Assembly: GCA_030016635.1 (NCBI GenBank) | Contig: JASEJQ010000002.1 | Span: 1 to 64,000, forward strand | Reading direction: 5' to 3' | DNA: 64,000 nucleotides | DNA from: Thermoanaerobacteraceae bacterium | Lineage (GTDB): Bacteria; Bacillota; Thermoanaerobacteria; Thermoanaerobacterales; UBA4877 | Shown: positions 53,533-54,867 of the stretch, piece after piece | Numbering within the stretch: position 1 is the stretch's first letter | How the letters are laid out: the number at the start of each line of letters is the position of its first letter | Made by a program: the position numbers and the translations under genes | Notes under the pieces: model-generated | Told to the model about the DNA's origin: nothing | Seen by the model: the letters and a program-made list of their open reading frames with translations, nothing else | Databases searched by the model: none

Positions 53533-53622
53533 TGGTGCCGGAGACCGGAATCGAACCGGTACGGGCTTTGAAGGCCCCCGGGATTTTAAGTCCCGTGCGT
53601 CTGCCAGTTCCGCCACTCCGGC
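53533..53622 (-). tRNA. tRNA-Leu (TAA)
   Basis: A 90-base class II tRNA with a long variable arm, anticodon loop CTTAAAA (anticodon TAA), acceptor GCCGGAG/CTCCGGC and encoded CCA. It is the first of three tRNAs behind a consensus promoter. Confidence 0.95.
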
Positions 53623-53681: not shown

Positions 53682-53939
53682 TTATAATGTTATCTTGAAC
53701 CAGGCCAGGCCATCCATCATGAATTTTACCTCACCCTGGCCTATATCTATATCCTTAGAGATATAAACCTCAACATCATCCATCTGATATTTTATGTAGT
53801 TTTCTATATCTTCCGGCTTGCCCATCCATCCAGATGGGGCTCTCTTGATGCTTCATCAGGTTGAAAATTCTTCAATCCTTATGGTCAAAATCCCACCGTG
53901 GTTTCTTATGTATCTCACAGCCCACCTGTCTAAATACAA
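53682..53939 (-). CDS. Candidate tandem-selenocysteine protein, CC/Se motif family
   Basis: An 85-residue frame that contains two adjacent in-frame TGA codons (53858-53856 and 53855-53853, residues 28-29). Reading both as selenocysteine gives GGILTIRIEEFST-UU-SIKRAPSGWMGKPED, then VYISKDIDIGQGEVKF and a TAA stop after FKITL. This layout matches the CC/Se motif family, where the pair is CC or contains Sec. Start is TTG directly after the ppx stop, with GGGAGGAG seven bases upstream. A hairpin (GCCCCATC/GATGGGC, loop TGGATG) begins 12 bases after the second TGA, a fitting SECIS. Without Sec insertion it would be a pseudogene. Confidence 0.78.
53820..53845 (-). promoter_or_regulatory. Candidate bacterial SECIS hairpin
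   Basis: Minus-strand stem GCCCCATC with GATGGGC (one bulged C) closes a loop TGGATG containing the GG seen in SelB-binding loops. It lies about 20 bases after the double TGA. Confidence 0.5.
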
Positions 53940-54815
53940 TCATTTCTCCTCCCTTAAGAGGTATCCCTCAAGATTGTCCCAGTCACTTACATATATACCG
54001 TCAGCTTTTAATAGGTCCAGGCACTTTTCAAGGATAGCAGTGCCGGCCAGTATTATATCCTCCCTTCCTCTCTGAAGACCTTTCACTCTCCGCATCTCAT
54101 CCGGAGACATCTCATAAAACTTATGCCTTATCTTTTTTATATCGACTGTTTTTAAATAATAGCCCTGTACCTTAGATTCATCATATTCATCCAGTTCCAT
54201 GCTGACTGCGGCCAGGCTGGTGATAGTGCCGCCTATGCCTATAATCCTTACTGCATCCTTAATGTCACCCAGATGGGGTTTTAAGAGATTTTCCACTTCT
54301 TTATAGAGCCCATACATATTGTCATTTATAATAAATCTCTCGGTAAACCTGACAGAACCCATACCCAGGCTGAACTTATTCAGTATATCTCCTCTGCCCT
54401 TTATGAATTCTGTACTGCCACCGCCTATATCCACTACCAGCTTTATTTCATCCTGAGGAAACAAGGCTGAGGCACCGATAAAACCCAGCTCGGCCTCTGT
54501 ATCACCATCTATAACGTCTATCCCTACCCCTGTTGCGTCCTTTACCAGCCTCAAAAATTCTTCTTTATTTTTTGCATCCCTGACCGCGCTGGTGCCAAAA
54601 GCCCTCGGGTCGCATCCATATCCTTTCGCCTCATCTGCATATTCTTTTATTACTTTCAGTGTCCTTTCCATGGCCTCATCCTTTAAAAAACCCCTGTCCA
54701 CACCTTCTCCAATCCTTGTTATGGCCACCCTCTTTAATATTCTTTTTCTACTAACAGTATCCATAATAAGGAGTCTTGTAGAGTTGGTTCCTATATCTAT
54801 AGCTGCCTTTATCAT
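53940..54815 (-). CDS. ppx: Exopolyphosphatase / guanosine pentaphosphate phosphohydrolase family
   Basis: About 291 residues of the Ppx/GppA actin-like ATPase fold: IDIGTNSTRLLIMD (phosphate 1), AFGTSAVRDAKN, VDIGGGSTEFIKG (phosphate 2) and GIGGTITSLAAV. It hydrolyses polyphosphate or pppGpp. It is the short, single-module form found in Firmicutes. The start at 54815 has AGGTGGA upstream. Its TGA stop is followed without gap by the candidate selenoprotein start. Confidence 0.92.
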   Translation of the reverse strand: MIKAAIDIGTNSTRLLIMDTVSRKRILKRVAITRIGEGVDRGFLKDEAMERTLKVIKEYADEAKGYGCDPRAFGTSAVRDAKNKEEFLRLVKDATGVGIDVIDGDTEAELGFIGASALFPQDEIKLVVDIGGGSTEFIKGRGDILNKFSLGMGSVRFTERFIINDNMYGLYKEVENLLKPHLGDIKDAVRIIGIGGTITSLAAVSMELDEYDESKVQGYYLKTVDIKKIRHKFYEMSPDEMRRVKGLQRGREDIILAGTAILEKCLDLLKADGIYVSDWDNLEGYLLREEK

Positions 54816-54867
54816 ATTCCACCTCATTAAAAAGGCATCTCACTACCAGTGAAATGCCCTGTATCTC

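Follow-up and report, generated by a model that had tools for sequence, protein, structure and literature searches.

A CC/Se-family gene with two adjacent in-frame UGA codons: a candidate for tandem selenocysteine decoding

How does one signal recode two successive codons? The question is raised by a small gene in a 64,000-nucleotide stretch of DNA from a Thermoanaerobacteraceae bacterium (contig JASEJQ010000002.1), called the window here. The frame of this gene contains two consecutive UGA codons, and it belongs to a subfamily in which this doublet (UU, where U stands for selenocysteine, Sec) recurs. We consider it very probable that it is a real selenoprotein gene with tandem Sec decoding, a judgement that concerns the decoding and is separate from the role of the product.

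The reading frame and its family

The gene lies on the minus strand at 53939-53682 and comprises 85 codons for 85 amino acids, beginning with a TTG at 53939 and closed by a TAA at 53684-53682. Its in-frame UGA codons occupy 53858-53856 and 53855-53853 and correspond to residues 28 and 29. A plus-strand reading of 53682-53939 was ruled out, its frame being closed by unrelated stops. Among the 89 TGATGA hexamers on both strands of the window, that of the UU gene alone is preceded in frame by 27 or more sense codons and followed by 56 or more. Directly upstream, a Ppx/GppA-like gene (53940-54827, minus strand; the ppx name comes from sequence reading) ends in a TGA that abuts the TTG in the same frame, and a Shine-Dalgarno site, GGGAGGAG, is located 6 nt before the TTG within the end of the ppx-like gene (53946-53953, minus strand). 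The description given in the first-pass annotation, of a TTG right after the ppx stop with its own ribosome-binding site and of a frame passing through TGATGA to a TAA, was thereby confirmed. A sequence scan found no promoter-like site directly before the UU gene, and a common transcript with the ppx-like gene is presumed. Readthrough at the ppx TGA would fuse the two products, and an out-of-frame ATG overlaps the same stop (both at 53937-53942, minus strand). On the downstream side lies a tRNA-Leu (TAA) gene (53533-53622, minus strand) with its own promoter-like site, a perfect consensus TTGACA-17-TATAAT at 53665-53637 ahead of a tRNA-Leu/tRNA-Met cluster.

With Cys written for U, the window protein scores 54 bits against the NCBIfam model NF041239, "CC/Se motif family (seleno)protein", whose curated cut-off is 40 bits, and 42.7 bits in a six-frame search; the family call made from the letters alone was therefore correct. 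The protein has no Pfam match above cut-off, the family profile found 0 matches in a PDB sequence search, and an Rfam scan returned tRNA and chance matches only. Residues U28 and U29 (53853-53858, minus strand) sit at the two family columns that hold C or U and align with the CC, CU, UC and UA of relatives; homologues with C or U at both positions, which the first-pass annotation had proposed to look for, are found in the family alignment. Cys homologues at the Sec sites are provided by the CC members of the wider family. One of these is a paralogue in the source genome itself, where a CC and a CU gene stand as a tandem pair on contig C17; the CU protein is 31% identical to the window protein. 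The CC paralogue (L020, G000:C17) and its near flanks are almost identical to L021 (G014:C1) from a genome of another family in the order. L020 is closer to L021 than to the copy of G001, a genome of its own family, which suggests recent transfer or cross-contamination. The Sec machinery, also named for checking, is complete: selD, selA and selB stand side by side in the source genome (selB and selD identified from the open reading frames next to selA), and selC, a tRNA-Sec with anticodon TCA, lies just beyond them on the same contig.

A subfamily with two adjacent UGA codons

Counting the window gene, 22 UU genes were found; the 21 others come from Bacillota and Chloroflexota and have the adjacent doublet at the same two columns. 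In 399 genomes of the phylum, 10 further genes with exactly two TGA codons came to light, and in all 10 the two are adjacent at the CC columns. A scan across the GTDB species genomes, which cover 84,980 species, used the peptide pattern PSG[LQ][MTV]GKPE, which is blind to the UGAs; of its 15 loci, some of them repeats of genes from the phylum search, 15 have UU. The carriers include Thermosediminibacter, Fervidicola, Thermovorax, Tepidanaerobacteraceae, Alkaliphilus, Anaerosolibacter and other Clostridia, as well as Anaerolineae and others in Chloroflexota; cultured carriers include Alkaliphilus peptidifermentans and Thermosediminibacter litoriperuensis. No relatives were found among viral contigs and plasmids.

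The UU genes share adjacent UGAUGA codons, a W near the N-terminus, a PSGxxGKPE tail and a 7-bp hairpin, all of which are present in the window gene. No member of the subfamily with Cys at either site (0 or 1 UGA) was found, even by the UGA-blind scan. All matches of at least 85 bits to a UU profile have two TGA codons, and all others score at most 42.5 bits and have at most one; since the profile was built with the window gene and its UU relatives, it is the score gap that counts and not the absolute score. Across the 91 rows of the wider family, the motif is UA in 22, UU in 22, UC in 15 and CC in 8, the remainder having other states; rows scored CI and CV are really CC shifted by one column. 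Two CC/Se stretches, L081 and L082 (G407:C13), have a TAA or TAG inside the match and are possibly decayed copies or given a wrong start.

With the UU columns removed from the alignment, the UU genes group in a single clade (94/90; recovered in 95% of bootstrap trees), within which the window gene is an early branch. Its protein is 39-40% identical to its nearest relative and 40% to the UU homologue L077 (E 4e-20), and its TTG start leaves it two residues shorter than its relatives. SelB was found in all 21 tested genomes holding UU relatives, over the cut-off in 20; in the remaining one, the match is broken into two parts within a single open frame. Judged on sequence evidence, UU is a fixed state of a subfamily, which goes beyond the earlier claim for a single gene.

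The shared hairpin and the decoding of both codons

The stem-loop with a GG loop that had been noticed at SECIS distance was borne out. In the window gene, the hairpin CCCATCT-GGAT-GGATGGG (53838-53821, minus strand) has seven pairs, and its loop, which starts with GG, lies 21 nt after the second UGA. Its quality exceeds chance expectation, since shuffles of the gene's own downstream codons matched it in 57 of 5000 cases. Single-sequence RNA folding of the stretch is unexceptional by itself (z -0.76); the support comes from comparison between genes. A 7-bp hairpin is common to 22 of 22 UU genes, with a loop that mostly begins with GG. For 19 of them, a simple scan puts this loop at 21 nt from the second UGA (the exceptions being 20, 24 and 26 nt). 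RNAalifold predicts the same helix unprompted. Covariance, which had also been put forward as a check, proved positive: 97% of cells in the hairpin alignment are paired, four of the seven pairs have changed on both sides in a compensatory manner, none of 500 shuffles equals the alignment, and slid controls collapse. The shuffles ignore relatedness and the hairpin bases also encode a conserved peptide, so that part of the base conservation is protein-driven. The strongest covariation point is for this reason the pair of columns 27 and 38, where synonymous Pro CCA/CCG changes accompany Met/Val to Thr/Ala changes.

Comparison with single-Sec relatives bears on how one hairpin might serve two codons. 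Nearly every UA, UC and UG member has the hairpin 23 nt after its first-position UGA; in the three CU members with a second-position UGA, including the paralogue in the source genome, it follows after 16, 20 and 21 nt. The corresponding distances to the loop in UU genes are 24 nt for the first UGA and 21 nt for the second. Both spacings are thus used separately, within a nucleotide, in single-Sec relatives, and on this ground a single SECIS plausibly serves both codons. The CU copy of the tandem CC/CU pair (L032, G000:C17, 1913-2185, minus strand) has a stem, CCCATCA/TGATGGG, almost the same as that of the UU genes. In the mechanism that we propose, SelB would bring Sec-tRNA(Sec) to two successive UGA codons, and one hairpin just downstream would direct both insertions. 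Sec decoding at both UGAs, the sharing of the hairpin and the biochemical role are what we infer; the frame, family, UU state, covariation, machinery, selection and clade are computed.

It could instead be that only one UGA is decoded as Sec, the other being read as another residue or being slippery, in a subfamily that is nonetheless real. The single hairpin for two codons would suit this, and in relatives Sec occurs at either position by itself, so either could suffice. We regard it as improbable, since UGA stands at both positions in 22 of 22 genes although a Cys codon is one base away, to which an unused UGA should have drifted; both spacings, moreover, occur singly in sister genes. More improbable again is that the UGAs are a real stop, the functional product being a 27-residue N-terminal peptide and Se-dependent readthrough being regulatory or minor. 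Tandem stops should terminate strongly, and in the system of one report (PMC4513850) a single UGA was recoded in vivo at only 30-40%, so reading two in succession ought to carry a cost. However, both halves of the protein are used in the predicted fold, and purifying selection on the codons downstream of the UGAs is roughly as strong as on those upstream: in the Anaerolineae group, pN/pS is 0.23 upstream and 0.15-0.22 downstream, and in the Thermosediminibacter group it is 0.35 upstream and 0.15-0.40 downstream.

Finally, the window copy might be a decaying CC/Se pseudogene whose UGAs are mutations. It is divergent, has a short N-terminus and a TTG start, and stands without conserved neighbours. 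We give this reading next to no credence, since the identical UGAUGA occurs in 21 relatives, the Shine-Dalgarno site, start, hairpin and stop are intact, and the tail differs from that of L077 by 5.5 nonsynonymous changes per 29.7 sites against 5.5 synonymous changes per 6.3. Tandem Sec decoding is, in our assessment, by far the best account of the UU genes. They would let one ask, in a natural setting, whether SelB and one bacterial SECIS can work in two elongation cycles running, and sister genes that have one UGA at a matching distance offer a ready comparison series for this.

Possible role and relation to known systems

In an AlphaFold2 model of the window protein (pLDDT 94), the UGA residues fall between the strands 17-26 and 31-39. 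SufA and DsrR rank first among the Foldseek matches of this model, and IscA, SufA and other HesB-like proteins fill most of the top eleven for the L077 model; the top PDB matches to SufA/IscA have probabilities of 0.84-0.96 but weak E values of 0.012-0.062, and they agree with one another. In hhalign, the family-wide alignment matched IscA/HesB (probability 85, E 6.7e-6), with CC on the first A-type cysteine, and the UU-only alignment gave no support for HesB. The predicted fold appears similar to that of IscA/SufA/HesB, UU falling in the loop of the first cysteine, and the product would be a small protein of this fold with a Sec-Sec pair in the loop of the A-type first metal-binding cysteine.

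The genes around UU loci suggest soft-metal/cofactor or thiol-redox chemistry. Aldehyde:ferredoxin-oxidoreductase-like genes occur at nine loci (one BLASTP cluster) and a [FeFe]-hydrogenase-like gene at six, both below the NCBIfam cut-off; a tungsten-cofactor radical SAM maturase lies near L087 and L089, over the cut-off, and near L097, below it; ArsR, ArsA and ArsP genes are also found. The window copy has only the ppx-like gene upstream and the tRNA-Leu downstream and lacks the neighbours seen at other UU loci. Near single-Sec relatives, a thioredoxin-family cluster occurs at 18 of 69 loci (five members HMM-checked), which is a functional lead for the whole CC/Se family. Single-Sec genes near thioredoxin genes include L003, L046, L050-L054, L056, L058 and L059, among others, and L006 and L070 lie near a fusion of thioredoxin and pyridine-nucleotide-disulphide oxidoreductase.

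Inferred from these neighbours and the modelled fold, the role that we favour, at somewhat less than even confidence, is a selenol/diselenide pair for redox-controlled binding and release of a soft metal, metalloid or metal cofactor. Our second choice, possible but rated below this, is a pure thiol/selenol redox relay, in which a diselenide would be reduced by the thioredoxin system and no metal would be involved. The thioredoxin genes near single-Sec members speak for such a relay; against it, the UU genes lie instead near aldehyde:ferredoxin-oxidoreductase-like, tungsten-maturase and ArsR/ArsA/ArsP genes, and the predicted fold resembles that of metal or Fe-S carriers. Fold and neighbours are compatible with the diselenide or metal site suggested in the first-pass annotation. 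Redox-controlled metal or cofactor binding also enters the wider picture that we put forward tentatively, of a widespread subfamily in which one SECIS may specify two adjacent Sec residues that form an obligate vicinal diselenide/diselenol on a HesB-like fold handling a soft metal, metalloid or tungsten/Fe-S cofactor.

In the literature searched, we found no bacterial protein with adjacent, tandem or consecutive Sec; an earlier notice in curator (Haft) work on new families is possible. The case for an adjacent-UU subfamily within the known CC/Se family is strong as sequence evidence. Adjacent Sec conserved across two phyla would constitute a natural vicinal diselenide. Ordinary gene finders would miss the UU gene, and because such small genes are easily split or dropped in annotation, the list of prokaryotic selenoproteins known so far probably has gaps here.

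Among known systems, the A-type carriers IscA/SufA/HesB (PF01521) are the best fold matches, and their first-cysteine loop (GGC-G) aligns with CC/UU. Their C-terminal CxC pair is absent from the window protein, whose translation shows neither Cys nor Sec beyond residue 29, so we do not class it as an A-type carrier. The HesB-like selenoprotein genes encountered have one UGA each, against two in the UU genes; L108, L109, L111 and L115, HesB-like genes in relatives of the source genome, carry a single in-frame UGA at the position of the first A-type cysteine. Bacterial multi-Sec proteins, such as the UxxU peroxiredoxin-like proteins and MbdU, share with the UU gene more than one Sec per protein; in the available text of a 2026 review of prokaryotic selenoproteins (PMC13188914), the motifs are UxxU, CU and UxxxxU, adjacent UU is not given among them, and Table 1 enters the CC/Se family with one Sec. 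The closest comparison is with NF041239 itself (Moorella selenoprotein-related). The UU subfamily shares with it a family score over the cut-off, the length, the position of the two-residue motif and a hairpin after the motif. The other members sampled have UC, UA, UG, CU or CC, with at most one Sec, whereas the UU subfamily has UU invariably and a PSGxxGKPE signature of its own.
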